NCBI RefSeq assembly: GCF_000264995.1
Contig: NW_006767433.1
Location: forward strand, 2,255,123 to 2,319,122
From: Punctularia strigosozonata HHB-11173 SS5
Lineage: Eukaryota; Basidiomycota; Agaricomycetes; Corticiales; Punctulariaceae
Direction of reading: 5' to 3'
Length of the DNA stretch: 64,000 nucleotides
Translations under genes and position numbers: made by a program
Shown: in pieces, positions 27,696 through 63,073 of the stretch
How the letters are laid out: each line of letters opens with the position of its first letter
How positions within the stretch are numbered: position 1 is the first letter of the stretch
The notes under the pieces: generated by a model
The model's database searches: none
What the model saw: the letters and a program-made list of their open reading frames with translations, nothing else
What the model was told of the DNA's origin: nothing

Positions 27696-30685
27696 ATGGC
27701 GGTCCCCGTACGCCCAAAGCTCAAAACCGCGTATGTACTTTGCCGAGTTCGACGATCGCGAGCTAAAATAACCAACAGCTTTAAGAAGGCTCGTGTCGTT
27801 GCCCCTCTATATACCGGGGGACCCGTAGCAGTGGCCGGTGATGGAAGCAAACTGTTCAGCTGTGTTGCTGAAGATGTGGTCATGACGGATATTGCCTCTG
27901 GCACGGAGATGTGTCGGTTTGCTGGCGTGAGTCATCATGTCAGCCTCCCGGAGAATAGCTCATCGAGGCAGTTGACAGGATACGGAATCTGTCACCGCAC
28001 TTGCAGTATCTCCTTCGTCAAACCATCTCATAATGTTCACTTCCTCCCTATCGCTCCGGGTGTACGAAGTTCCCGAGGCTACAGCAGATACATCGAAGCC
28101 AATACGACCTGTGCGTGTAGTGTCTCGGGCACACGACGCTCCCGTCCATGTGTGCAAGGTGGATCCGACGTCTAGTTACGTCGCATCTGGCTCTGCGGAT
28201 GGCGTGGTCAAAGTTTGGGACGTTCGTCGGGGGTACACGACCCATATATTCAAAGGCCATGGCGGGGTGGTCAGCGCCTTGACATTCAGTTACCCTCGGG
28301 ATCCTTCTGCCGTGACCTTACCCAAGATGCACTTGATTACCGCGTCGGTCGACACGCGGATCCGCATCTTCGATCTCTCGGCCTCGGTTTCTCGCAACGG
28401 AAGCTTCAAGGCAGAGCATATCCTCGAAGGCCACGTTTCCGTTCCTCGTGGGCTCGACGTCACAGCTGATGGGAAATGGCTCGTCAGTGGCGGACGGGAC
28501 TCGGTGGTCCTTCTTTGGGACTTGTCGTCTCTTGCTGGGAATTCCAACAAGCCAAAATCCAGTAAGGCGAAGGGCAAAGAGAAGGCGATGGTCCCTGCCT
28601 TGATGAAAACCATCCCCGCTCTCGAGCGGGTTGAGGCTGTCGGGCTGTTAGCCCCCTCAGAAGAGCTAGGGGGAACGTCGACCGGCACTGATAAGATACG
28701 CTTTTACACCGGCGGAGAGAAGGGTGTCATCAAAATATGGGACGGCCAGAGCGGATCCGTAATGCACACGTTTGGCTCTGAGTCTGAACTCGCCAGCGAC
28801 GAGGAACAAGAAGAGCAGCGTCAGATCGTCAACGCCATGTAAGCACTCTATCGTGTCCCTCCCATCCACATCCTGACAAGAAATCCATATTTAGCTACGT
28901 GCCGGCAACGTCCACTATAGTATCAATACACGCCGACCAGAACATCCTGTTCCATTCTCTGTCGACGAAGGCTTTGACTAGGCAGCTGATCGGTTATAAC
29001 GACGAGATCGTAGACGCGACGTTCCTCAGTGCCAGCGCGAATGACCCATCCGGCGTTGACTCGCACATCGCGTTGGCAACAAACTCTTCCCTCATTCGCG
29101 TCTACTCGACCTCACAATCGGACGCCCGCTTACTCGAGGGTCACAGCGATATCGTTCTCTCACTGGACCACAGCGCTCGTGGAGACGTTTTAGCCAGCGG
29201 CAGCAAAGACAGGACCGCCCGACTATGGAGGCCTGCACAATATAACAGAGAGAAAGCTGGGGAGTGGGGCTGGCGCTGTGTCGCAATCTGCGAAGGCCAC
29301 GCCGAGAGCGTCGGAGCAGTAGCGTTGCCGCGTAAAAGCGACGAGGAACGGCCTCGCTTCCTGTTCACTGGCAGCCAAGACCGCACCATCAAAATGTGGG
29401 ACTTGCTGCCTCTTGGCCCAGACACCATGACGGAGGATGCCCTCAAGTGCAAAAGTCTTACAACACACAAAGCGCACGACAAGGACATCAACTCCCTCGA
29501 TGTAGCCCCGAACGATCGCTTCCTTGCGTCTGGATCTCAGGACAAGACGGCGAAAGTATTTGAGATTGACTATGTCGTCACCGGCACAGGGTCGGTTCGC
29601 GGCGAGATCAGGCTCGTCGGGACATGCAAAGGACACAAACGAGGGGTGTGGACCGTACGGTTCGGCAGAGCGGAGCGGGTGTTGGCCACCGGAAGCGGAG
29701 ATAAGACGGTCCGATTGTGGAGCCTCGAAGATTTCTCATGCGTGAAGACGTTCGAGGGGCACACCAATTCCGTGCTGAGGGTCGACTTTTTGAACGCCGG
29801 CATGCAGATGGTCAGTGCGGCGAGCGATGGGTTGGTGAAGATATGGAACGTGCGTGAGGAGGAATGCACAGTAACACTCGACAATCACGAGGACAAGGTG
29901 TGGGCACTTGCTGTCAGCAGGGATGAACGGACCATCGTATCTGGCGCGGCCGACTCAGTGGTGACGTTCTGGGAGGATTCTACCGAGGAAGAAGAAGAAG
30001 AGAAGGAGAAGAAGCGGGCGGATATGGTTTTGAAGTGCGTTTCATTTCACTTTTACAACGCGCGAGCAGATATCTAACTATCGCCGCCATTCATAGAGAG
30101 CAAGACTTCCTCAATTACGTCTCGCTCCACGACTATCGAAATGCAATTTCGCTCGCTTTGGCAATGGAGCAGCCCGGTCGCCTCCTGAACCTTTTCAAGC
30201 AGCTGCGCTCCAACAGGGAAGATGATTCGGACATGGTGCCTCCCACGGATTGCATCACAGGCCATCCTACCGTCGACGAGGTCATCCGCACGATGCACGG
30301 CTCTGAGCTGACGAAGCTCCTGAAGTACGTCCGTGACTGGAACACGCATGCGAAGACAAGCGCCGTGGCGCAGGGCGTGTTGTTCGCCGTGGTCAAGCTC
30401 CGGAGCGCGGAGGACATTATGGGGGCCTTTACCGCCGGCGGCGTGGGTGATTTGCTGAGCGATAAGGCCGGCGCGGGGAGCACGGCCCTGAAGGAGCTGA
30501 TTGACGCCCTGATCCCTTACACGGAACGTCATCTGGCGCGCATGGAACGGTTGGTGCAGGAAAGCTATGTCGTGGACTATCTGCTGAGCGAGATGGACGA
30601 CGGGATGTTCGATGAGGTCGGCGCGGAGGAAGAGAGCGACGGAATGGACGTCGACGACGGCGAATGGGAGGGCATCGCCGCATAG
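27696..30685 (+). CDS. UTP13: UTP13/TBL3, small-subunit processome WD40 protein
   Basis: Start MAVPVRPKLKT at 27696 with an intron right after; the acceptor leads into SFKKARVVAPLYTGGPVAV. Two seven-bladed propellers follow, with many canonical blades, e.g. YVASGSADGVVKVWDV, FLFTGSQDRTIKMWDL, VLATGSGDKTVRLWSL. The last exon holds the Utp13 C-terminal helical domain (EQDFLNYVSLHDYRNAISLAL to VVDYLLSEM) and an acidic tail ending DGEWEGIAA; stop at 30683-30685. Utp13 belongs to the UTP-B (Pwp2) complex, which binds U3 snoRNA and pre-18S rRNA in the nucleolus. Length and domain order are as in the family. Confidence 0.93.
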
Positions 30686-31661: not shown

Positions 31662-34600
31662 ATGTTTACCGTCAAGGCTACCTACCGCGGCGAGACAAGG
31701 CGCCTCACCTTCGGTGACTCGCCCGCATTCCCGTCGTACGACCAGCTGTACCAGCAGGTAAGCGCTCGTCCCGCCGTCTCTTTCCCATCGTCGCTTATCG
31801 CCACTGCAGCTTTACCGAGTCTTCAGCGGCCACTCGTTCTCCCTCAGCAGGCTCATCTTCTCCCCCGCCTCGGGGCAGTCGATTCTCATAGGCACCGAAG
31901 TCCACAGCCAGGAGGAATACGACGCTCATACCGCACCGTACAAGGACAAGATCTGGCCCGCCGCCGTCCTCAAGCTCACGGTCGTTGACGAGACGCCGCG
32001 CAAGCGACCCCTCCCCGTCCCTCGTAGGGCGCTGTTACCTCCCACTGCACCTCGGCATCAGTCGTCTGAGCCGGACCTGCGCAGCAGGGGCGTCATGAGG
32101 CGGGAGTACGGGGATGAGCCCACTCCCCGGCGGCCTATCGCAGAGCGCCCGAACTCGATGCTCATCGACTTCCTATCGTCGTCTCGGCCCAGGCTTTCCA
32201 GTCCTCAGCGCGCATCGCTGCACTCGGAATCGCCGTACCAGCCGGCATACGTGCACTTGCCCAAGTCGTCGCATCCGGCGTCGTATCAGCCGATGTACAT
32301 ACCTAGCCCACCTCCTCCGGACACGACTTTCGTGATCCCACCTCCGCCTTGCATCCCTCCGCCCCCTGTTTTGAATACGCTGCCGCAGCCACCTCCCCTG
32401 GTGGTTCCTCCGCCTCCTATCATCTATTCGTCGTCTGCAGCTCCGAGCCCAGTAGAGAATATGCGCCAGCTAGGCAATGCACCGGCCGCTGCGCCCCGTC
32501 GCCCCTCACCCTGCTGCAGCGTTGAAGAGGGTCGCAAGGAGATCAAGAACATGCTCACGAACTTCCTGCGCGACTTTGAGAGGATTTCCAGCTCTACGTT
32601 CGGCGTCCCTGTGTTGACCGGTTTACCCGCCGAGGCTCCGGTGCCTGCGCCACCGACCCAATCTGCTATCAAAGAGTCCAACGAGCCCGCGGATCTCAAC
32701 CTTCACATCCCTGGGTCGTTCGAGCACGGCAGCCTGTCGGCTCGCTCTACCCCGGTACCGTTAGTTCACCCGCGTCAAACGTCGGATGATCCGACCGTCA
32801 TCCATGCTGGGATCGTTTGCGATGTCTGTCGCCAGACGATCGTCGGTGTCCGCCACAAGTGCATGCAGTGTCCCGATTATGACATGTGCACATCCTGCTA
32901 CGAGATGCCCGGTACTATGGCTAGACACCGTGGTGGACACAGGTTCTTCCAGATTGAGCAACCTGATGCGGTGGTACATCACAACATCGTGTGCGATCGT
33001 TGTGACCTCACCGTCGTGGGCTCTCGCCACAAATGCTTGGACTGCCAAGGTAAGCAATAATGTCAGATTTGGACGGTTCATTCACATGCTCACGATTGGC
33101 GTCAGATTACGATCTTTGCACCCGTTGCCTGAAGGACGTTACGGAGTTCCACAACCCCTTCCACTCGTTCTACGAGATCAAGGAGCCTGGTAGGGTTGTC
33201 GTACACAACGTGTATACTGGCACCGGGGAGGCGAACGTGGGCAGTGTCAGCGCTGCTCCTCACAGTCGGACAACGATGACAGGCCGAGCGCGAACGACTG
33301 ACGGTTCTCCTGCAATCAGCTCTGCTTCTGCTTCGCCAGTCCTCCATAATGCAACTTGCGACCTATGCTCTTCGAGGATCGAGGGCGAGCGCTACAAGTG
33401 CCTGAATTGCCCTGATTATGACACTTGCTCAGCATGCTTCAGCATTACGAAGGAGCAGCACCCGAATCATGGCTTTGTCAGGATCACGAGGAGGAAGGAT
33501 CTAATGGTATGCACATCTCTGTGACTATGTCGCGGCCGCCCTTGCTGATTGATCTTGAAGATGCGTGGCTCTCTCAGTAGCATGGAGAACACCAGGCACC
33601 AAGCAACGTGCAACGCCTGCCAGAAAGTTATCTACGGTGTGCGCTACAAGTGCATGCACCCGTCGTGCCCCGATTATGACCTTTGCGCCAACTGCGAGGC
33701 CCATCCGATTCCGGTCCACCCGCCGCTTCATCCTCTCCTCAAGATGAAGACCGCTAGCACGGTCATTCCGACCGTGTATCGCGTCGGGGGAACCGAGCTC
33801 ATCCCTGCTCCGAAGGTCACGGAACCTGCTCCCCAGATTCCTATGCCCGGGTCGGTCCCCATCACCAGCCGTCGAGAGACGGCTTCTCCTACGCTACCCG
33901 CGATGTTCGGCCAATGGCACGCGCGCGATGTCCTCGAACAACAGGAAGAGATGGCAGACTTGATTACCATGCCTGATTCCCCGCGATCTACGCCCTCTAT
34001 TCCAAGGATCCCCAATATCGACCTGAGCGGCGATCTCTATCGCGAACTTTGGCCAGCGGTTGCCTCCGAGTGGAACGGGATGGTTCAACCAATGCATGAG
34101 CAACCGGTCGACGCCGGAGCCTTCACCCCGCTCACTCCTGACATCAAGCACCTACTCAACCCCATTCCCGAAGAATCCCGCAGCGATATCGTCGAGGTGA
34201 CAAACGGCGCGCCACTCGTCGACGTCGAGATGCCGGAGTCCACGCACGTCACGGAGTCGTCTCTCAGTGCGGCGAACGCGTTCACAGAGACGCAGTCCAC
34301 GTCCGGGCCTTCCCCGCTCGGTGCAGAGGCGTTGCTAGCGACGCCTTTGTCGTCTTACGTGCCGACGAGCTACGCGGCCGACTACATGGAAGTTCTCCGC
34401 AAGCTCCAGCAAGACCTGCTTGCCCAGGCCCAGACTTCCCCTGCTTCTGTTGGACTCACTTCTCCGGTGACGGCACGTGCAGTCGCCAAGGAGGCTACCA
34501 AGAATATTGAGCTCACTCCCGACTTTTGCACACAAGCCTTGAACCCATTCAATGACACGGCTTTCTTCTTCTCCATCCCCAAGGTTCAAGTCCTCACTGT

Positions 34601-35766
34601 GCGCAAGGTCACCCCCACCGTCAGTTATGCGAAGGAAACAGAGCGATACCGTCTGACCGTATCTGACGGTGCTCACTTTATTCCGGCGCTGTTGGCTCCT
34701 GAATCCAACCACTTGGTTACGTCCAATGCCGTACAGAAGAACACCGTTATCACGCTCGACAACTTTGCCACGAACGTCGTTAACGGCAAGATGTGAGTTG
34801 ACTTCTTGTGTGGAGTTGAATCAATGTTGACCGGCTGCGTACTTTCAGTGCACTGGAGATATTTGCTATGACTGTTGTTGCGCAGCCCAACGAGAAGATT
34901 GGCTCCCCGATGATCTGCCTACCTCCCCAGGCCGTCGCTTCCCCGGAGAGCGTGACCAAGACCGTCTCGGAATCCGAGTCTGTTCCGTCGGTCAACGTGT
35001 CGGAAACCGAGACGGAGCTCGCCACCGCCATCGATGCCACGCTGCGCGCTTCGTTCCTCTCCGACGTCAACATCCCGGACGGCCAGGTGTTTCCTCCCGG
35101 CGCCGAGTTTGTCAAGTCGTGGTTGATCAAGAACGATGGTGAGGTTAGCTGGCCCGAAACCACGGAGCTGATTTGGGTGGCGGGCGACCGTATGCTACCG
35201 GACCACCAGACCGACGCTCGTGTCCATGTCGGCACTGTCCAGCCTGGCGAAGTGGTCACCATTTCCGCTCCTGAGATGAAGGCACCCGAGGTGCCAGGCA
35301 AATATGTCAGCTACTGGAAGCTCAGCGATGGGACCAAGGGTCGCGAACTCTTCGGCAACAATGTCTGGGCGGAGTGAGTTGTTCCATTCCTTGGAAGCAG
35401 GACGTTGCCTGATGATGCGTTGCTTTCAGTATCAACGTTGCAGAGCATAACAACGTATCGGACGCATCCAGCGAACACTCTTTGGCGTCTTCGTCCGTCA
35501 TCATGCCGCGCCCTGCCTCGCAAGACTCGCGGCAGACGGGCGCAGGAGCTGCCGTTCCGTCGACGAGCAGCGTGACCGCACCCTCCGACATGGGCTCGGA
35601 CGACTCGATCTCGCTTATCAACGACTCGGATGCGCACTCGCAGCTCTCCGCTGACTCGGATGACGAGATCTGGCAAGACAGCCGATCCGAAGTGGTGCCC
35701 GCCCAGCACGGCGAGATCGAGTACGTCGTCCTGTACGAAGAGGATAGCTCGTCCGAGGACGAGTAA
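31662..35766 (+). CDS. NBR1: NBR1-like selective autophagy receptor with an embedded RPA70N-like domain
   Basis: Six exons: 31662-31757, 31810-33049, 33106-33506, 33561-34792, 34849-35373, 35430-35766. In order: a PB1 domain (MFTVKATYRGETRRLTF, then YRVFSGHSFSLSRL); a polyproline region; four ZZ zinc fingers (VCDVCRQTIVGVRHKC, VCDRCDLTVVGSRHKC, TCDLCSSRIEGERYKC, TCNACQKVIYGVRYKC, each with DYDxC); a long acidic linker; an OB-fold matching the N-terminal domain of RPA1 (34505-34911); and the NBR1 four-tryptophan domain (KSWLIKNDGEVSWPE, LIWVAGDRM, YWKLSDG, NNVWADINV). The acidic C-terminus contains EIEYVVLYEED, a good Atg8-interacting motif. PB1, ZZ, FW and AIM are the NBR1 set; the RPA70N-like domain is not part of any NBR1 I know. 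Confidence 0.88.
34505..34911 (+). other. RPA70N-like OB domain inside the NBR1-like gene
   Basis: Exon 4 ends with LTPDFCTQAL, PKVQVLTVRKV, RYRLTVSDGAHFIPALL, NHLV and NTVITLDNFATNVVNGK; exon 5 continues ALEIFAMTVVAQPNEKIGSPM. The order and spacing follow the RPA1 N-terminal domain (pattern P-x-x-QV, RYRL-x-x-SDG, N-x-LV, KIG-x-P). Exon 4 also carries ZZ4 and exon 5 also carries the FW domain, so the block cannot belong to a neighbouring gene. Confidence 0.85.
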
Positions 35767-36188: not shown

Positions 36189-37971
<1,783 letters not shown>

Positions 37972-50866: not shown

Positions 50867-52374
50867 ATGCTCGCTGCCAGCCTTGTTCTCGGTGCCCTCG
50901 CAGCTCCTTCTTTGGCCTTCCCCTTGTTCAGCTCTTACGAGCCGTTCGAGCTCTTCAAGCGCATCAGCTCCGGCTGCAGCACCACCGGCACCGCGTCCTG
51001 CCACAACTCCACTGTCGTGAAGGACACTTGCTGCTTCGAGGCCAACGGTCTGCTCCTGCAGACGCAGTACTGGGACTTCGACCCGGCTAGCGGACCCGAC
51101 GACAGCTGGACGATCCATGGTCTCTGGCCCGACTAGTGAGCTGCGCGCTCAGTATGCTTTTGCCATTATCGAGCCCTGACAACCATCGGTTAGCTGCGAT
51201 GGAACCTACCCCGCCAGCTGCGATTCGTCTCGCGCTTACACGGACATCTCGGGAGTGAGTCCTCTTACGATACCGTGACCGCCGTTCCTGAGAGAGTGTT
51301 TTTACTAGCTCCTTACGGACCAAGGCGCCTCGGATACCTTGGACTACATGGAGACGTACTGGGTTCAGCCCGCCAAATTCGGCACCGATGAATCATTCTG
51401 GGAGCACGAATGGGCGAAGCACGGCACATGCATGACGTGAGTGTTGATCCTGTAAACTATGCGCCTCATCTCAGATTGGATTGCAGCACTCTCGAGACCT
51501 CCTGCCTGCCTTCAGGCAGCTCTAAGGGTGCCGAGGCCGTTGCCTTCTTCAAGACGGTGGTCAAGCTGTTCAAGGTGAGGCTTTGGATCAGCGTGGCTCG
51601 TACATGGTACTGAGTTTTTCTTCAGAAGTTGCCAACGTACGATTGGCTCGCTAATCAGGGCATCACGCCCGACTCCGACAAGACGTACACCTTGAAGGAG
51701 TTGACCTCCGCCCTCGAGGCCGAGTCTGGCGGGTTTACTCCCGCGCTCGACTGCGACAGCGGCAACCTAAACATGATCAGCTGGTACTTCAACCTGAAGG
51801 GCTCTGTCATCGACGGCAAGTTCGTGGCCATCGATGCTCCGGAGGCCGGCTCGTGCCCTTCAAGTGGCATCAAGTACCCGCCCAAGTCGGGATCGTCGTC
51901 TTCGAGCACCACCACCACGAAGACTTCGACGAAAACCAGCACCTCCACCACCAGCACCGCGACCGCCACTGGCCTTCCTACCAAAGCGACGCTCGTCGCT
52001 AGCTCCAGCGGTGGCTTGCTCAGCGGGGGCACCTGGTCGACGCAGACCTTGGCTACGTACACCATCTCGGGTTCCGCCGACAGCTTCACGATGAAAACCT
52101 CCAAAGGAAGCTGCGGCGTGTCGAGCGGCGCGCTGAAATGTGGCAGCGGCGTTTCCTCATCCTCTTTCTCAGCCGTAAGCACGCCCGCGAATGTTCGTTG
52201 AGCATTTGCCTGATCATTCCTTGTTAGGTCTCCTCCGGCAGCAAACTGTTGCTCGCTTATGACGGATCCACCAAGTGGTCCTCCGACGATACCCCTAGCG
52301 GGAGCGACCAGGAGACGGTCTACACTGGCAGCAGCCATGACGAATCCTTTAAGATCTCAATCCACTCTACGTAA
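50867..52374 (+). CDS. Secreted ribonuclease T2
   Basis: Signal peptide MLAASLVLGALAAPSLAFP, then a Cys-rich mature protein. Both catalytic segments are present: WTIHGLWPD (CAS I, residues about 81-89) and FWEHEWAKHGTC (CAS II, near 51400-51430). Disulfide cysteines (SGCSTTG, ASCHNS, DTCCFE) fit fungal T2 enzymes. A Ser/Thr linker (51890-51970) leads to a C-terminal beta-sandwich domain of about 110 residues (GTWSTQTLATYTISGSADSF, SGSKLLLAYDG) found on many basidiomycete T2 RNases. The enzyme cleaves RNA by 2',3'-cyclic phosphate formation outside the cell or in the vacuole, probably for phosphate and nucleobase scavenging. Five short introns; stop at 52372-52374. Confidence 0.93.
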
Positions 52375-53208: not shown

Positions 53209-54705
53209 CTAATTGTGGCCGTACCGAAAACGCCTGTATAAGTTGATGAGTAGGTCGTTTGCGGTGAGAGTGATTATACTGTGTAGGTGATGTTATCAGT
53301 GCACGAGCAAAAATCGGGGAAAACTGTTCGCTCACGTATGAGGTGCAATGCGGAGGAAGTGAGCGGTTGAGCCTGAAAAGGGAGCAAGCTTAATGTTCAC
53401 CATGCAAGTAAGCCATTGCAGCCACGTACCTTTATACCAGCCAAACACGCCTTCTGTTTTAACGGTCTTCCACAGACAGTCTATTGGATTCTTGTATAGT
53501 GTTCCTGCATATCGACCATTAGGTAATTTCACCATGGGTTGATTGTACATTCGTGTTAATGCCTGTGAAATCGTCAGCGGCAGATCATAGTCTTAGAACG
53601 GCCACGTACTGTGTCGGCGGGCTGCATAGCAATGCACTAATTTTACGGCATAAGTCAAAGCTATACTTCCCCTTTCGTTCGCACTGACCACACACATCCC
53701 AGATACAGTGCTACTGAGGAGGTAGGTCCATACGCTGTTACTCGGCAGTATGCCTCGCGATACAAGCTGATTCTTGGTCCAATTGTAACTTGGCAACTGT
53801 ACGGAGGAGCCCATGGAGGTTCGCAGGATGGCAGCGTCGATTCCGTTCACGAGGCCTCTCCACTTCTGGGCTTTGAAGATGGTGGCCAGGGCGTCAAACG
53901 AGCTTTTGTAGTGGTGTTGTGCGCCAACCGGGAGCGCTGGTGAATAAGCCTGATGTACTGACGTCAACCACGGCAAGGCCAGCCTAACTTCAGCTTCAGA
54001 TGGAGCGTACTTGCATGCGAGCCTTTATGAGGAACAGCGGATTCCCGAGAGACGCTGAAAATGTCCGCGGAATGACTACTTGGCTTCATAGCCCACCTCT
54101 TCCGACATACCTCCAACAGCACCGCTAGCAGCACCAGCCAGAAGGGAGGTTATCGGAACCTGTTCTGTAGGCGACCATCCCAGTAAACGGTTTATGCTGT
54201 GCCGTATAGGTTCGTAGAAGCCTATGGGGTACTTGAGCACAGATGGCACGCCGCGAGTGATCAAACATACCCAGTCGTGAACCATTGAGTAATATCTAAG
54301 CGATTTAGATGGTTACAACGGAGACTTCAGCAAAGGTCTCACTTGGTACGCGTACTGTATACATGGATCAGTGAGGAAGCACGACATACACCAAACGTTA
54401 TACTCGCCGCCGGGGCCAATCCTCGCTGCAATCCTCGGACACCTTCGTTGCGCCAAGTCTTGCCCCACACATCGAACGCATTTCGGTAGACCTTCTCAAA
54501 GCCTCCCTTCATGAGCTCTCCCTGTAGCTGCAGACGCGTCTTGGCGACTTCCGCCGGGTTGGAGAAGGTGACCTGCGGATCACTGAGCGGAAGTCCGACG
54601 CAGCCTAAGCCAGGCACTGACAGCTATACATGCCGCGATTCCTCCCAAGACGAAGCCCTCCGCCGTCGAGAGCGGCTTGGGCGCGGACGGTGGAGGCGCT
54701 GTCAT
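53209..54705 (-). CDS. OAC1: Mitochondrial carrier of the OAC1/SLC25A34-35 type
   Basis: The start at 54705 opens MTAPPPSAPKPLSTAEGF and the first helix VLGGIAACIAV. Signature repeats: SNPAEVAKTRLQLQGEL, a middle repeat ending LRTSMGSSVQLPSYNWTKNQ, and a third with ALTRMYNQPMVKLPNG, LYKNPIDCLWKTVKTEG, FGWYKGSTAHFLRIAPH. The final exon reads IITLTANDLLINLYRRFRYG, stop at 53209-53211. Yeast Oac1 moves oxaloacetate, sulfate and isopropylmalate across the inner membrane; the motif pattern suggests the same group, though the substrate is inferred. The gene is head to head with the MDM1-like gene, start codons about 150 bp apart. Confidence 0.85.
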
Positions 54706-54856
54706 GTCCCGCGAGATGGAAGGGAAGAAGGAGGACAGGGAGCGAGAGGGAACGAGTAGACGATCACAGGGTCGTCCCGAGCGGACGCAAGGCCGAACAA
54801 GTCCGCGCGCGTCGGAGCCTTGCTTCCCGTCGCCCGACGATGACCTGACCGTCGCG

Positions 54857-57040
54857 ATGCCTGCCCCGCGAGTTGGGACCCATGCGCTGGTCGTCGTCGT
54901 CGTCGCCGCCGCCGTTCTTCCTGCTTTGACGCGTGTAGCTTACTACCCTGTCGTTCTACTCGTCTTCCTGCCGCTCTTCTTGGCCCTACTCTGCATCACC
55001 CACTTCGCCGGCTATGTCCTGTTGGCTAACCATCTCGACGCCAAGTACCACGAAGGAGCCAACCGCTCGCTACGTGCTGCCCGACCTCTTGCCTTCTCGA
55101 CGCCTGCGGCGTGGCAGGCAGTGTTGACGCGGTCGCAATGGCACAAATCCCCCCAATCATTCACGCATCTCGTCCCGCAATATCCCACCGTCTCCGCCAT
55201 CCTAAACGAGATCCTGATCATGATAGTCCGAGACTTCGTCTTGACGTGGTACAAGGACATATCCTCTTCTCCCTCCTTTCCCACCGCAGTTTCCTCTACA
55301 CTGCATAGCTCTATGGAACGTCTCCTTGACCGCACGACGAACATCGATCTCCCAGTGCTCATCGTAAAGCGCGTCCTCCCAAAAATAACGACACACCTCG
55401 AACAATTCCGGCAGTCGGAAACGACCCTTCGTGGCGCAGGGCTGGAGCGCAGGCTGACCCAGTCCGAGGAGCTGGACTTGCTTCTGGCCAGTCGATACGC
55501 AAGCAGAGGAGCGAAGCTGCATCCCGCGGTAAATAACCTGTCGTCCACCTTCACACGACAATCAGAGGAGGAGCATCTGCGGAAGCTAGTTGACAAAGTA
55601 CTGCCATTGATCCTGCCGGAGAACGAGGCTCGCAGTGCCGCCGTCAAGATTGTGGCGCGCGAGATAGTGGCATGCTCTGTGCTGTACCCCGTTGTCGACA
55701 TGTTGTCCGATCCCGATTTCTGGAATCGTACCATAGACCAGGTCGCAGGTGCCGCCATTCAGCAGCAGAAGTTGGTATCGCGGGTACGCAACGTCCTGGA
55801 AGCCCAATCACCGGGGCAGCCTTCCTCGGACGTTTCTCCAGCAACTTTGGCGCCGGAGGCCATCACCATCAATACCGATCCTCGTCACTTCGATGCGTTT
55901 CTGCGCAGCATCAGTCGTTGCTCGTCCTTGCTGGATGCTAGGCGCCTGAAGAACGACATTGTTGGCGAGATACGAAGGACGCGCGCCTTGCTAGGTTTGT
56001 CCAGTTACTTGTTGCAGTCAGATTCCGAGCCGAGTCTCATGAATTATAGCAAACCACGAGAACGAAGAATGGATTAACGGCAAAAAAACTGAAGATATAA
56101 TATCGTTCCTTGACCGTTTGTACACTGCCCGGCGCAAGGTAGAGAAGCGGATATCAATACTAGGTGGTGGAGAGCAAGAAACGGTACATTTGTTTATTTA
56201 TGCGGCTTGCTCGTCTTCGATCCTGACACGGTCCAACAGGTGGCCGTAAATTCAGATGCAGACTCGGAGAGCACTCAAAGCCTGAGTCTACGTGACGTAC
56301 TGTCGAATCCGAGCTCGCTGTCGTATTTCATGGAGTTCATGGACCGCAGGCACCGCTCCCTACTCGTACAATTCTGGTTAACGGTGGAAAGCTTCAAGGA
56401 TCCGCTCGAAACTGTGGATTCTTCTTCGTCCGGTGACGAAGATGAACTGCTGCAGGCGCCCGCTGATGCAGTTACGGTCAGAGAAGACATCTCCATGATC
56501 TATGACCTATACTTCTCTTCCTCGACTCCTCCTGCTGCGTTGTCCAATATCTCCCGCAAGTATATAAACGCGATCCGCGAATTCGCGACCGGCGAGCAAT
56601 CATCCTCACCTATCGTGGAAAGGAAGGTACGGCGCAGTGTACTGCTGGCCCAAAAACAAGCGGAGCAGGAGATGGAACACGACTTCGGTGACTTCCGGCA
56701 ATCAGAGCTGTGGTTTCGAGTGGTAGGAGATTCTGGGATGCCGCTATCCGCGGCGAGACAGAAGCAGTCTCGGTCGTCACCCACCTCACCCAAACTCGCT
56801 CGAACATCCTCGGGGGATGCAAGGGGGTTCATGCCGGCTGCCAGTCTAGTTTCGCGGGCAGATTCCACATCCAGTTTGGCCTCCGGCACACCTACCCCAT
56901 CATGGGCGCTGGGATCTTCCCACTCTTCAACTTCCGAGCCTTTCCCAGCTGCGATATCTTCCCGACCAGCCACCTCGAACTTAGCGCTTCTCATGTCATC
57001 CGATGCAGGGTCTCTGGCGAGTCTGCGCACGCCCGGGTCC
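54857..57040 (+). CDS. MDM1: MDM1-like sorting nexin, N-terminal part (TM, PXA, RGS)
   Basis: Start MPAPRVGTHALVVVVVAAAV at 54857, followed by two membrane helices (LPLFLALLCITHFAGYVLL), the PXA domain (FTHLVPQYPTVSAILNEILI, LLLASRYASRGAKLHPAV, REIVACSVLYPVVDMLSD) and, after introns near 56000 and 56190, a linker with FLDRLYTARRKVEKRI and the RGS domain (LRDVLSNPSSLSYFMEFMD). Mdm1/SNX13-14-25 proteins tether ER to the vacuole and lipid droplets. The plus-strand reading keeps frame to GGGTCC at 57035-57040; beyond that the family sequence continues on the other strand (57041-58167), then returns here at 58168. As assembled, the plus-strand message would end soon after (TGA at about 57140). Confidence 0.85.
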
Positions 57041-58167
57041 AACAATGCCGACATACTCAGCCGCTTGTCGGGTCAGACGTTGGATCATGACATCCAGCAT
57101 CGATGGTCCGAAGAACATATCGTCGATGCTATCGGTTACTGACTTGTAGACGCTGCGGACGAGGTTTTGCCCGGGGAAATTGGGCAAGGTTCGGCCTCGA
57201 GGCGGTTCAGAGGCAAGGAATGGGGAGTCGCGGGAGAGGAATGCACGTAATTCAGCGCTTTCGCAGACAGCAGGAATGGCTACGAGACCCTGAAAGGATG
57301 CATTAGCTACGACGCTGCAGAAAAGCAAGGAGTATGGCACATCATCACCTGCATGTACTTCTCTAATGCCTGTCGTCGGATATCGACAAAGCTTCCAGAC
57401 AGCGACGTGACAAGTCGTTTGCCAGGGAAGTCGAGGTTTCTGACCGAAGCATAACGCTCGCGGAGCTTGTTATGCATGCTGAGGAACTCATTGTACCTGC
57501 GAGCGACGACCCAACCAGAAGCAAAACCACCGTCTGGAGCAAGTTGCTGGACTTCGATGAGGTACCGCACCACGCTTCTTCCGTTCTCTTCACCCACGGT
57601 GGAATTTACGATTGCCACCTTTGTGCGGTCCGAAAGGAGGCGATTTGCGTTTTCCTGCTGCTCATACTGAGTCTTCTGAAAGGTTAACTCCCGAAGCTCG
57701 CGATCGAGGGAAGCCTTGGACTGGCGGAGGAGCCTGAGCTCCTGAGCGTCGCCTGTCAACTCGGCTTTCTTGATCAACGTATTGAGCATACCATCTTGTG
57801 ACTGAAGGTTATTGATCTTATCGGTCAAGCGGGATATGTCATAAGATAACTGAAGATCTCCTGGCGCCGCTAGCTTGAAGGATCCGACTTCTTTGTCTTC
57901 AAGGCCGAGAGTGTCTTCTTCCTCGGAGTGAACTTCGTCCTCGAACAAAACGCGCCGTTTCGGTCGGGAACCAGCAAATGGTTTGTTGGATTGAACATCA
58001 GGCTCCGGTATCGTAGAACTTTGCGATGCAGCGGGATTTGAGTTACCCGTCTCACGCTGCTCGAGGATGATGTCCGTCAACGCATGTTGTATGGCTGCGA
58101 TACGCTGTTGCTGTGCCTCGTCTGGAGCGAGTATCTTTGATTCGTCGAATTCGTCGAACAAAGAGTT
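57041..58167 (-). CDS. MDM1: MDM1-like sorting nexin, PX-domain part, inverted
   Basis: Read on the minus strand from 58167: NSLFDEFDESKILAPDEA, a coiled coil (LTDKINNLQSQDGMLNTLIK), the PX domain (VRYLIEVQQLAPDG, WVVARRYNEFLSMHNKL, DFPGKRLVTSLSG, RRQALEKYMQ), an intron, then CESAELRAFLSRDSPF, SIDDMFFGPSMLDVMIQRL and TRQAAEYVGIV ending at 57041. These are precisely the segments missing between the plus-strand RGS part and the plus-strand Nexin_C part. There is no start codon context or promoter of its own, so it is a displaced exon block rather than a separate gene. Confidence 0.88.
57041..58167. other. 1127-bp inversion within the MDM1-like gene
   Basis: The segment begins AACAATGCC and ends CAAAGAGTT, with AAC/GTT as a 3-bp inverted match at its two ends. 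Turning it round joins GGGTCC to AACTCTTTG and GGCATTGTT to ACGGACG, and both joints keep the reading frame and the family sequence. It is either a real local inversion or an assembly error. Confidence 0.85.
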
Positions 58168-58823
58168 ACGGACGAAGACCTGGTCGCGAACGCGCTCAAG
58201 GCGTCTGGCAAAGCATCTTCAGAAGATGCATTATCCAAGATGTCCGGAGACCTTCGACCTCTCGATGGCGAGACAAGCAGTTCCACGTTTTCTTCCCCTA
58301 TCTGCGATTTACTCTTAGCGCTGTTCGAACTCGACGAGAAGAAGAACTGGCTCAGACGGCAAGCGATCGTCATCATCCTGCAGCAGGTACTCGGCGGTAC
58401 CATCGAACGGTGAGCCTCTACCGAGATTTTCCGACCCCTGTCATCAAATGAGTCATGATATAGGAAAGTGAAGGAAGGTGTCAAATCAGTGCTCGACGAG
58501 ACCCATGTCATGCTTTTCCTCAACTCTTTCCGGGATAATCTCTGGCCGCAAGGCAAGCTGAAAACCCCTGTAGCTCCGCGGTCTACCGAGGAGAAAAATC
58601 GCACTCGGGATGAAGCAAACAGGAAGCTGTCCGCTCTGATGCCAGGTGAGAATCAACCGCGTCGGTCAGAATCGACTTCTGATCCATCGAAGATCTCGCG
58701 GCAAACGTCATCGGGAGATCGAATGCCAGACGAGGCGCGCGCCGTATCTTTGCAGCATTGCAAAATCGACGGCTTAATCAACATATCATATACACAATCA
58801 TAGACGAGGTGAATAATGAGTGA
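58168..58823 (+). CDS. MDM1: MDM1-like sorting nexin, C-terminal part (Nexin_C)
   Basis: The plus strand resumes at 58168 with TDEDLVANALKASGKASSED, LSGD-like linker residues, PICDLLLALFELDEKKNWLR, RQAIVIILQQVLGGTIER, an intron, KVKEGVKSVLDETHVMLFL, FRDNLWPQGKLKTP, RDEANRKLSALMP, and a last exon DLAANVIGRSNARRGARRIF to RLNQHIIYTIIDEV; stop at 58821-58823. This is the Nexin_C domain that closes Mdm1/SNX13-type proteins and contributes to membrane binding. It has no start codon in a sensible place, consistent with being the 3' part of the interrupted gene. Confidence 0.88.
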
Positions 58824-58972: not shown

Positions 58973-60923
58973 TTATCTATCTTGTATGTCCGCAGCTGAG
59001 ACGGATAGTGAATGCGCCTGGAAAGCGGTGTTGGATCCTTCACTCAGAGGTGTTCCTGACCTTGAAGACTCGGTAGTGATTTCTTCAAGCACCTTCACTC
59101 TTTTGTTCTTCACGCGATAGGCCATGATGGAATTCGCTGACGGGTCGTCGTATCTACCCACGACCGTAAGGTGAGGTTATCAGGCGCACAATGATGCACA
59201 TACACTTTGATTGTATGTAACAAAAAACCGCCTGATCCGGACGTAGTCATGAATGGATGAGTTCGGCCAGGAAGTACCTGATCAGCCTCGTGAGCGCACA
59301 CCTACGAAGAAAAGCGGAAGTTGACATACCTGATAACGGCGTGTCCAGCTCTCGGACACGGTAGGTCCCAAGTATTGTGGCTTTCCGCGTAGCTCGCCTT
59401 GGAGGTCCGCTAAAATCTGATTCACGATGTGAATCAACCGAAGTCACTTATCGAGAATGTACAAGATCACTAACCTGCATGTAAGGGTTATGAACCACTA
59501 TAGACGCCGAGCCAGCTAGATATGGCGAGAGCTTGTCCATGATCGACAGCGGATCGTATTCGCTCGCTACCAGAAGTCTGGATATTTTAAATCGAAGAAG
59601 TCGCTGTTAAGCGTCAAATAGACTTACCCATCAAAACCACCTGCATATAGCTCTTCACGAAGGCCTTGGAGCGTATCGGCAGCAGCTTTCCGCTTATTCA
59701 GGCGCGATTTTTGCTTCTCAGATTTGGCCTGGCTCGCATGATCCTCAGAAGCCACTGCAAAAGGTGTCGGCTCACGCAATGTGAGTAACGGTGGATTGAC
59801 GGCGAAACGCGTACCTGGAATGTAATCTTCTTCGAGAGTTAACCAGTTCAGCGAGGATATGACAGAGTCAAGGACATTTTTGGGATAATTCATGTGGGTC
59901 AAGACGGGGTAGGTAGGCGGAGAATCGACATCACAGATTGTGAATATTCGACCGCTAGCTGTAACGCATGGTTAGTGGCGATCGAACGATGAGGAGCTCC
60001 ACAACATACCTCCGATACGATCCAGCACTGCAGAAACGACCATACCACCTGCATCGTCCACGACAAGGTACCGACCATCCGGACGTATATTGCATAGCGT
60101 AATCATTTGGGACAATGTATCTATACGGATTTCGCGGGTTCGAGTCTTGTCCTTGGCAAACCAGTATTCGCAGATATTGAATAAGGTCGGCTCCACGACA
60201 GTAAAATATTTGCCGTATCTACGGTGTTTCAATTTCACGGCGCGTTGCTGAGTGAAGGTACGACTTACTTGGCCTCCTTGCGTTTCTTGTACTTCTCCTT
60301 GCTGTATTCCGTTTTCAAAGCATACGTAGCGTGCATCTCTACTTGTTTCTTGATTATTTCCTGCGGAGACATTTTATCAGATTGTTTGAGTGGCGACATC
60401 CATATATGGTGGATATTCATACGATACCGATGCATGAACACCAGATTTTTTCAATGTGTCTATCTCCTCGGATGTTAGAGGTTGCACGAATTGTCCATCG
60501 TTGATGAGTTCGTTAGTTGCCTCCGTATCCTCTTCCTGCGATATGAGAGCGAATCAAGAAACGTGGGCGGAGCTGAACCAACCGAGATCTTGTATTGTCG
60601 GGGGTCTCATGAGTTTCAATTTCTTGTTGTCGATTTCGAACGACAGCCCATAACTTTGCCCAATAAGCTCATTCGCCGCGAACGAACCAAATCTTCCGAG
60701 ACTGATATTACTGGGCGGCGAACGTTCGACGAGAAGACGAGCAGACAAATGAGACGAATACCTACCTGTGCCCGTCGAGTTTGATACTTCGGACCTCGCC
60801 ATTGGGCAGTCGCAACAGCGTCGTGTGTCCTGGCTCGATGAGATCACTCCTCGCGTGTGAGAGTTGTGCAGATTCCGCTTGTCCTGAAAAGCTGGCAGAT
60901 ACGTGGCTTCCTGTTGCGTTCAT
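58973..60923 (-). CDS. TRM6: TRM6/GCD10, non-catalytic subunit of tRNA (adenine58-N1)-methyltransferase
   Basis: From ATG 60923 (MNATGSHVSASFSGQAES): SDLIEPGHTTLLRLPNGEV, ISLGRFGSFAANELIGQSYG, KLKHRRYGKYFTVVEPTLFN, ICEYWFAKDKTRTREIRIDT, LSQMITLCNIRPDGRYLVVD, LTHMNYPKNVLDSVISSLNW, and the C-terminal VLPGRTHPFMTTSGSGGFLL; the last exon ends SVSAADIQDR with stop at 58973-58975. Trm6 pairs with Trm61 to methylate A58 of tRNAs, needed for initiator tRNA stability, in the nucleus. The subunit lacks the SAM site, as expected. It is head to head with the UCS gene, start codons only 89 bp apart. Confidence 0.9.
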
Positions 60924-61012
60924 CAGTTGACAATCCTAGTCTGCCGGTAGCTGAGTTGGGCCGTGAAGCAAAAAGCGACCGCGTTGAGGGTTCTCACGGG
61001 TGCCTGTTCGCT

Positions 61013-63073
61013 ATGAGCCATGACCAGGAACTCGACGCTCTGCTCCAGCGTTCCGCTGAGAAATCGTTGAAATCGCTCAATGAGGAGGAAACTGCATGCT
61101 TAGTGTCGTCTTTTCTGCCATCTCATCCTCCTGCCGCTCGTTCAAAGGCATACTTAATCCTTTCTTCCTTCTGTCAGGCAGTGCGCTCAGCATACCAGAC
61201 TACCACTCAATCCGAGTCGGACCCTGCAGCTGCCTCGATTGCCCGCTCATTCTCCTCGCATGTACTCGAGAAACTGTCTGGAGCGAACGAATATGACACC
61301 CTCGCGTCTATCTCATTCCTGATTGCCTTATATCAGGTGGATTGGCAGGCGGCCACGTCCATCCTTTCTAGGGATGGTATTATCGACGCTGTCATGGATG
61401 CTCTAGATTTATTCTCGTCGTCGAAGGCTATAAACCTAGCCCTTGCGCATCTCCTCTCCCAGGCTAGCGGTCATACAACGGCGCGAGCCATGCTTCCGTC
61501 ACAGTGTTCCGAGTGGCTGGTCGCGAAATCTTCGCAGAAGACCGATCCTGCCCTGCGTGCGGCTGCTGTCGTGGCGCTCGTCAAACTTTCGCGAGCAGAA
61601 AGCTCTGATGCTTCCGCAACCAAACCGGCTGAAGGCGTCGCTACTGATGACGAGCTGGCGAACTTGATGAAGGATCTTCTCCTCGAAGGAAAGGACGAAT
61701 CTTCAGTGGCCGATGCTATCGAAGGCCTTGCGTACACAAGTACCGATCCTCGAGTGAAAGAATCGTTGTCCCAGGATGAGCCATTCCTACGGCGACTGTT
61801 TTCTCTCGTGCCGAAGCGACAAAAATCCATTTTGCAGGGTCTTCAGGAGGATCGAAATACGGCAGTCCTGTACGGCATCGTCATTATAATTGCCAATATA
61901 TGCGGCTATCGTCCACGTATCAGCAAGGAGCAGGCGCAAGTGGAGAGGTTGAAGAGAATGACGAAGACCGGTGCCTCACGATCGGGCAAGTTGGTCGATC
62001 CTGGCTCAGATCCTCTTGAGGATGACACTCGCGTAAAGGAGAGGGGAAGCCGAATCGTCAAACTCGGTGCCATCGACGCTCTAGTGTCGGCAGCGAGAGG
62101 TGTCGACAGTCGAGGTGTTCGAGTTGGAGTGGCAAATGCCCTGTTAAGCTTGGTCGAAGACAGGGAAAACCGGGGAAGGGCGCTGCAAAGTGGTGCAGCG
62201 AAGACCCTAATGGCTATCATGCGCGCATCACCAGCGCTCGTGGGGGATACCAAATCATCCGTGGATCCAGCGGATCTGCTTGCAGTACAAGCATTAGCCA
62301 AATTGGCCATAACGTCTTCTCCGATACAAGTCTTTGGACCCGACCCAGGAGTCATGTACGACACCATACGCCCCTTTTCTATCCTTCTCATGTCGTCATC
62401 ATCAAATCTGCTTCAACGTTTTGAAGCACTCATGGCCCTCACGAACATTGCATCACATGGACCTGAAGCATGCTCCCGCATCGCGAAGACGGATGGATTG
62501 ATGAACAAGGTTGAACTTTTGCTGCTGGAGGATCATGAAATGGTTAGAAGAGCTGCTACAGAGCTTCTTTGCAACCTTGTCGCGGGTTCTGAAGAAGCCT
62601 TCGAGCGATACTCTAGTGAGAATGGCGCGAAGTCCAGGCTGCACATCCTCGTGGCGCTGGCGGATGTAGAGGATCTGCCTACGAGGATGGCCGCGTCTGG
62701 AGCACTCGCGGCTCTGACATCGTCACCGAACACATGCCGCACACTCATGGAGCTGCAGCGGGAAAGACATAGCATGCTCTCTATCGTCGCGCAGTTGATT
62801 GACCCGTCAGTGGGCGTAGCTGGCGATGACAATACGGAACCCCGAAACCCTGCCCTTGTTCACCGCGGCGTCGTCTGGGCAAGAAATATCTGGGCTGGTT
62901 GCCCGGAAACTGATGCACGCAAGGATCTCGTCAAGGAAGCGGAGGCGTCGGGCCTTGTCCGGGCACTGACCGGCTTAGTGAGGGATGCGCCGAAGGTGGA
63001 TCCCGCGATTCTTCAACCAACAGCCGAGCTGCTAAGGCTGCTGGTGGGCTCGGGAATCGATATCAAGTTTTGA
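61013..63073 (+). CDS. SHE4: UCS-domain myosin co-chaperone (UNC-45/Cro1/She4 family)
   Basis: A single long exon, unusual for this window, of 686 residues starting MSHDQELDALLQRSAEKSLK. It is almost entirely helical armadillo-like repeats: DAVMDALDLFSSSKAINLAL, QKSILQGLQEDRNTAVLYGI, IVKLGAIDALVSAARGV, VRVGVANALLSLVEDRENRG, the UCS signature region NLLQRFEALMALTNIASHGP, MVRRAATELLCNLVAGSEEA and RGVVWARNIWAGCP. UCS proteins fold and stabilise myosin motor heads in the cytosol. The TPR domain of animal UNC-45 is absent, as in fungal Cro1/She4. Its client class I myosin is encoded immediately downstream. Confidence 0.9.
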   Translation: MSHDQELDALLQRSAEKSLKSLNEEETACLVSSFLPSHPPAARSKAYLILSSFCQAVRSAYQTTTQSESDPAAASIARSFSSHVLEKLSGANEYDTLASISFLIALYQVDWQAATSILSRDGIIDAVMDALDLFSSSKAINLALAHLLSQASGHTTARAMLPSQCSEWLVAKSSQKTDPALRAAAVVALVKLSRAESSDASATKPAEGVATDDELANLMKDLLLEGKDESSVADAIEGLAYTSTDPRVKESLSQDEPFLRRLFSLVPKRQKSILQGLQEDRNTAVLYGIVIIIANICGYRPRISKEQAQVERLKRMTKTGASRSGKLVDPGSDPLEDDTRVKERGSRIVKLGAIDALVSAARGVDSRGVRVGVANALLSLVEDRENRGRALQSGAAKTLMAIMRASPALVGDTKSSVDPADLLAVQALAKLAITSSPIQVFGPDPGVMYDTIRPFSILLMSSSSNLLQRFEALMALTNIASHGPEACSRIAKTDGLMNKVELLLLEDHEMVRRAATELLCNLVAGSEEAFERYSSENGAKSRLHILVALADVEDLPTRMAASGALAALTSSPNTCRTLMELQRERHSMLSIVAQLIDPSVGVAGDDNTEPRNPALVHRGVVWARNIWAGCPETDARKDLVKEAEASGLVRALTGLVRDAPKVDPAILQPTAELLRLLVGSGIDIKF

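Follow-up and report, generated by a model that had tools for sequence, protein, structure and literature searches.

The choice of cargo by NBR1 has been described through the ZZ, FW (four-tryptophan) and UBA domains, and fungal Nbr1 is said to bind its cargo by means of the ZZ and FW domains (PMC9233695). The Nbr1 protein of Chaetomium thermophilum, one of the closest described systems, comprises a PB1 domain, four ZZ fingers, an FW domain and a LIR (PMC9233695). According to a review of NBR1, the UBA domain was lost by most fungi (PMC9582228), so this domain is not needed for membership of a fungal protein in the family. The discussion of a survey of PB1 domains places NBR1 in all five kingdoms, and the fungal section of the same survey deals with four families from 12 proteomes, NBR1 not being among them (PMC7051960).

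The N-terminal domain of RPA1 (RPA70N in human, the N-domain of Rfa1 in yeast) is a protein-docking module with more than 20 partners (PMC10479964). Acidic hydrophobic peptides sit in a basic and hydrophobic groove of this domain (PMC10479964; PMC5457501); mutation of R31, R41, R43 and R91 of human RPA70N weakens the binding of a HelB peptide (PMC10479964), and R31, R43 and R91 contact PrimPol peptides (PMC5457501).

We describe here a gene of the basidiomycete Punctularia strigosozonata, located within a contiguous stretch of 64,000 nucleotides that was analysed as a whole (hereinafter, the window), which apparently encodes an NBR1-type receptor with an RPA70N-like domain between the ZZ fingers and the FW domain.

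Organization of the NBR1-type gene

The splice sites of the gene were picked from consensus and reading frame, and the predicted features outside the RPA70N-like region are the following.

31662-35766, + strand: NBR1-type gene, six exons, 1276 amino acids
31662-31757, 31810-33049, 33106-33506, 33561-34792, 34849-35373 and 35430-35766, + strand: exons, predicted splicing
31662-31998, + strand: PB1-like N-terminus, amino acids 1-95, spanning intron 1; weak Pfam PB1 match
32800-32928, + strand: ZZ finger 1, amino acids 363-405, the best of the four Pfam ZZ stretches
32980-33179, + strand: ZZ finger 2, interrupted by intron 2 (33050-33105); limits set by eye from the cysteines in the translation
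33345-33485, + strand: ZZ finger 3, limits set by eye; Pfam counts four ZZ
33597-33746, + strand: ZZ finger 4, limits set by eye; in the open frame that also holds the RPA70N-like block
35069-35439, + strand: FW domain (N_BRCA1_IG), amino acids 1064-1168, PF16158 with E = 1.1e-29; final residues in exon 6
35722-35733, + strand: LIR-like motif YVVL, amino acids 1263-1266, preceded by EIE within the acidic tail; located by pattern and charge scan

All five introns of the model are of the GT-AG type and are 52-56 bases long, and the spliced translation contains a single stop, which is terminal. When the whole protein was compared to Pfam with E-values up to 1 admitted, five families were detected, namely, ZZ, N_BRCA1_IG, Rep-A_N, ZZ_ADA2 and DUF936. 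The ZZ model matches four stretches (7.7e-36), in agreement with the one to four ZZ fingers expected in the NBR1 family, and ZZ_ADA2 is a second ZZ model that matches the same protein (8.2e-11). The FW region, in which there are five tryptophans, is similar to the FW domain of human NBR1 (PDB 4ole, 6.1e-16), to ILRUN (6vhi, 4e-13) and to a fusion chain with Chaetomium Nbr1 (7vqo, 1.3e-7).

The termini of the protein are less clear-cut. A Pfam search with the N-terminus yielded a weak match to PB1 with E = 0.0097, which covers profile positions 2-42 of 84 and, at 16.3 bits, stays below the cut-off of 23.6; PB1 is absent from the families obtained for the entire protein with E-values of up to 1. 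Comparison of the N-terminus to PDB produced matches to eight chains, none of them PB1 and all of them beta-propellers; six of the eight had a whole-sequence E-value below 0.01, none of the eight had a stretch significant by itself, and we take these matches, in which one short repeated piece is aligned, to be due to chance. No UBA domain was detected in the whole protein by Pfam at E up to 1. At the other end, the tail (amino acids 1169-1276) contains 23 acidic and only three basic residues, and the LIR-like motif lies within it, at one of the 16 places in the protein where the bare pattern [WFY]xx[LIV] occurs. With the domain described below, the predicted product is an NBR1-type selective autophagy receptor, and its sequence directly shows ZZ, RPA70N and FW domains in this order. 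The layout and the short introns point to a fungal gene.

The neighbourhood was surveyed for domains in 10 of the 44 long frames of the window, including those with the Utp13, RNase T2, PXA/PX and UNC45 matches mentioned here. Directly upstream of the NBR1-type gene, at 27976-30682 (+), is a Utp13-type gene, which encodes WD40 repeats in frames 27976-28839 and 28788-30074 and, after them, a Utp13 domain (3.3e-46). Downstream and convergent is a histone H4-like gene (36189-36669, -) that begins with MSGRGKGGK, with the start at 36669, and that, judged by eye, we take to be an intron-containing histone H4 gene; the segment 36971-37500 (+), likewise judged by eye, presumably holds the beginning of a gene similar to those for riboflavin-pathway reductases. 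Further along the window, 51614-52198 (+) encodes the end of an RNase T2 (1.3e-8) and an RNase T2-like C-terminal domain (8.4e-17), and the interval 54587-58218 includes a PXA domain on the + strand (2.5e-53) and a PX domain on the - strand (1.7e-13), less than 4 kb apart. An UNC45-central domain (7.3e-27) is found at 60842-63070 (+), possibly marking a gene for a myosin chaperone.

The RPA70N-like domain

The region between the fourth ZZ finger and the FW domain is delimited as follows.

34503-34927, + strand: RPA70N-like block, amino acids 894-1016, including the C-terminal KIGSPM; cut by intron 4 (34793-34848)
34518-34792 and 34849-34882, + strand: match to Pfam Rep-A_N (PF04057), amino acids 899-1001, profile positions 3-100 of 101

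In the context of the whole protein, the nearly full-length match to Rep-A_N has an E-value of 4.6e-13 and scores 49.5 bits, the cut-off being 26.7. With the block as the sole query, the Pfam E-value is 7.3e-15 and, with only the part encoded in exon 4, which is a contiguous genomic stretch, it is 7.7e-14. Rep-A_N was matched by none of nine shuffled or reversed copies of the exon-4 part, and the sole hits to other families were two weak ones (0.16 and 0.21), both from a single copy. The NCBIfam model of RPA1 (TIGR00617, rpa1) was matched with E = 3e-10 at its positions 25-117 out of 608, in the register of the RPA1 N-terminus, and the score of 39.2 bits is far below the whole-protein cut-off of 334.2, as expected since only a single domain is present. 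A phmmer comparison of the block to human RPA70N chains gave a best E-value of 7.6e-4, the identity to human RPA70N being about 29-31%. A profile search from an alignment that included human RPA70N is circular and was left out of the evidence, and an AlphaFold2 model of the exon-4 part only, computed from the single sequence without an alignment, had a mean pLDDT of 41.5, too low to bear on the fold.

The original prediction was that a receptor of the NBR1 type contains a domain of the RPA70N family, and the Pfam, NCBIfam and phmmer results along with the shuffling controls bear this out; the RPA1-like motifs that it cited and their location between ZZ finger 4 and the FW domain are as it described. 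We put the probability that the predicted receptor contains an RPA70N-family domain at about 95%.

Among the side matches, the plant family DUF936 was detected below the cut-off, with E = 0.13 for the whole protein and 0.0028 for 34503-34790 (+), which hints that DUF936 contains a domain related to the RPA70N-like block.

An unusual domain combination raises the suspicion that an RPA-like exon has been joined onto an NBR1 gene by an error of annotation or assembly, and the present gene model does derive from the sequence of one assembly alone. Nevertheless, ZZ finger 4 and most of the Rep-A_N match are contained in one uninterrupted frame (33549-34796), exon 5 carries the end of the block together with nearly all of the FW domain, and the splice phase at intron 4 is such that the Rep-A_N match continues across the junction. 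Because the block is thus linked to ZZ finger 4 by frame and to the FW domain by exon, a spurious junction would have to involve two errors, both of them preserving the frame, and we consider it highly improbable, in accord with the original prediction, which argued from the contents of the two exons and whose limits for exon 4 (33561-34792) and exon 5 (34849-35373) are identical to those of the spliced model. On account of the common frame and the common exon, we also reject a separate gene between the ZZ and FW regions. The content of G and C in third codon positions is alike along the gene (0.64 in the RPA70N-like block, 0.69 in the preceding linker and 0.72 in the FW domain). No other RPA family, that is, none of the RPA1 DNA-binding domains A, B and C, was found in the whole protein by Pfam at E up to 1, and, given the absence of these domains from the Pfam list, we reject a fusion with an entire RPA1 gene.

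The combination of NBR1 with an RPA70N domain does not appear among the open-licence literature matches listed, as judged by titles and the beginnings of abstracts, which agrees with the earlier statement that no NBR1 with this domain was known. Because open-licence papers were covered, and these by titles and the beginnings of abstracts, the absence is weak evidence, and we would say that such an NBR1 has not been seen reported, rather than that it is unknown. Relatives were absent from viral contigs, prokaryotic genome contigs and plasmids (tblastn in the case of plasmids), as expected, and this result has no bearing on the spread of the domain among fungi.

The peptide-binding groove and possible functions

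For comparison of the groove, we used a set of 19 groove and side-pocket positions collected from two studies (PMC10479964; PMC5457501). In the pairwise HMMER alignment of the block with human RPA70N, R31, R41 and R43 are identical and R91 is replaced by lysine, so that the capture of proteins with acidic motifs appears plausible. Of the other basic positions, K88 is gapped and R81 is replaced by asparagine, and all seven hydrophobic positions examined differ (I33V, M57L, I83A, L87V, V93A, I95E and M97F). Altogether, 4 of the 19 groove positions are identical, compared to 23 of the remaining 70 aligned positions, so the groove is no better conserved than the rest of the domain. In a three-way alignment that included yeast Rfa1, the block shares 5 of 17 groove positions with the human protein (22 of 71 elsewhere) and the yeast N-domain 3 of 19 (14 of 68 elsewhere); here the block is gapped at R91 and V93, and I95 is kept. 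The two alignments thus disagree on the position of the last strand, and the R91K and I95E replacements depend on which of them is correct. In pairwise BLAST comparisons with human RPA70N, the block has an E-value of 1.4e-9 (28.9% identity in 97 columns) and the genuine N-domain of yeast Rfa1 one of 0.23, the block being the more similar of the two. It is plausible, then, that the block forms a basic groove, for ligands that might be unlike those of human RPA70N.

The reading that we favour, although we give it only about an even chance, is that the RPA70N-like domain is an added docking module for cargo or partners. Under this scheme, the domain would fold as an OB barrel with a basic groove that, as in RPA70N, takes up short acidic amphipathic peptides; the receptor would thereby gain a protein-docking surface additional to the ZZ and FW domains, and the docked partners would travel with it to the autophagosome via the LIR-like motif and Atg8. 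With regard to the nature of these ligands and to a link with DNA repair, both proposed originally, we can only extrapolate from RPA70N, and nothing in the present data points specifically to nuclear or DNA-repair cargo.

The extent of divergence in the groove suggests a different possibility, namely, that the domain was taken from a copy of RPA1 and is now an inert or structural insert, a spacer or a drifting domain. The replacement of all seven hydrophobic groove positions examined and the gap at K88 in the pairwise alignment, as well as the net charge of the block, which is -1, are compatible with such a fate. By contrast, the frame is open, the domain match is near full-length and the groove arginines are retained; furthermore, the N-domain of yeast Rfa1, which is functional, has a groove no more similar to the human one. 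We regard an inert insert as considerably less probable than extra docking.

Both LIRs and the ligands of RPA70N are short motifs of acidic and hydrophobic character. Conceivably, the RPA70N-like domain might act as a switch by binding, within one molecule or between subunits, the LIR-bearing acidic tail of the receptor itself, so that the binding of Atg8 is masked or gated. What makes this attractive is the acidity of the tail: among 20-residue windows along the protein, acidity is highest here, in one over EIEYVVLYEED and another over SADSDDEIWQDS. However, a simple ligand pattern that we devised for this purpose occurs twice in the protein compared to a mean of 6.1 in 500 shuffled versions, that is, shows no enrichment, and both of these acidic stretches fall outside it. 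Such a switch seems unlikely, and we rank it below extra docking and, by a smaller step, below the inert insert.

Returning to the docking module, the idea lends itself to a direct test with peptides because the groove is well mapped and the classes of ligands are known. If it is correct, a borrowed RPA70N reader would represent a further type of cargo or control surface in a selective autophagy receptor. In a more specific and doubtful version, a fungal lineage put an RPA70N reader into NBR1 and, with it, either delivers checkpoint, repair or replication factors that dock on RPA to autophagy or gates its own LIR. Selective autophagy might thus be tied to proteins of DNA metabolism.

Comparison with known systems

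With RPA1 (RPA70N and the Rfa1 N-domain), the block shares the PF04057 match, the rpa1 match in register and groove arginines that are largely retained, but it resides within an autophagy receptor, in which the DNA-binding domains A, B and C were not found. Human NBR1 and ILRUN have the FW domain in common with the present protein (4ole, 6.1e-16; 6vhi, 4e-13), which differs from them in its four ZZ fingers and RPA70N-like domain and in having no UBA detectable by Pfam. Chaetomium thermophilum Nbr1 resembles it in the four ZZ fingers and the FW domain (7vqo, 1.3e-7); the PB1 match is weak and the LIR putative in the Punctularia protein, and an RPA70N domain is not mentioned for the Chaetomium protein in the available part of its description (PMC9233695). 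The layout of the Punctularia receptor appears to be that of the Chaetomium protein with one extra domain, between ZZ finger 4 and FW.
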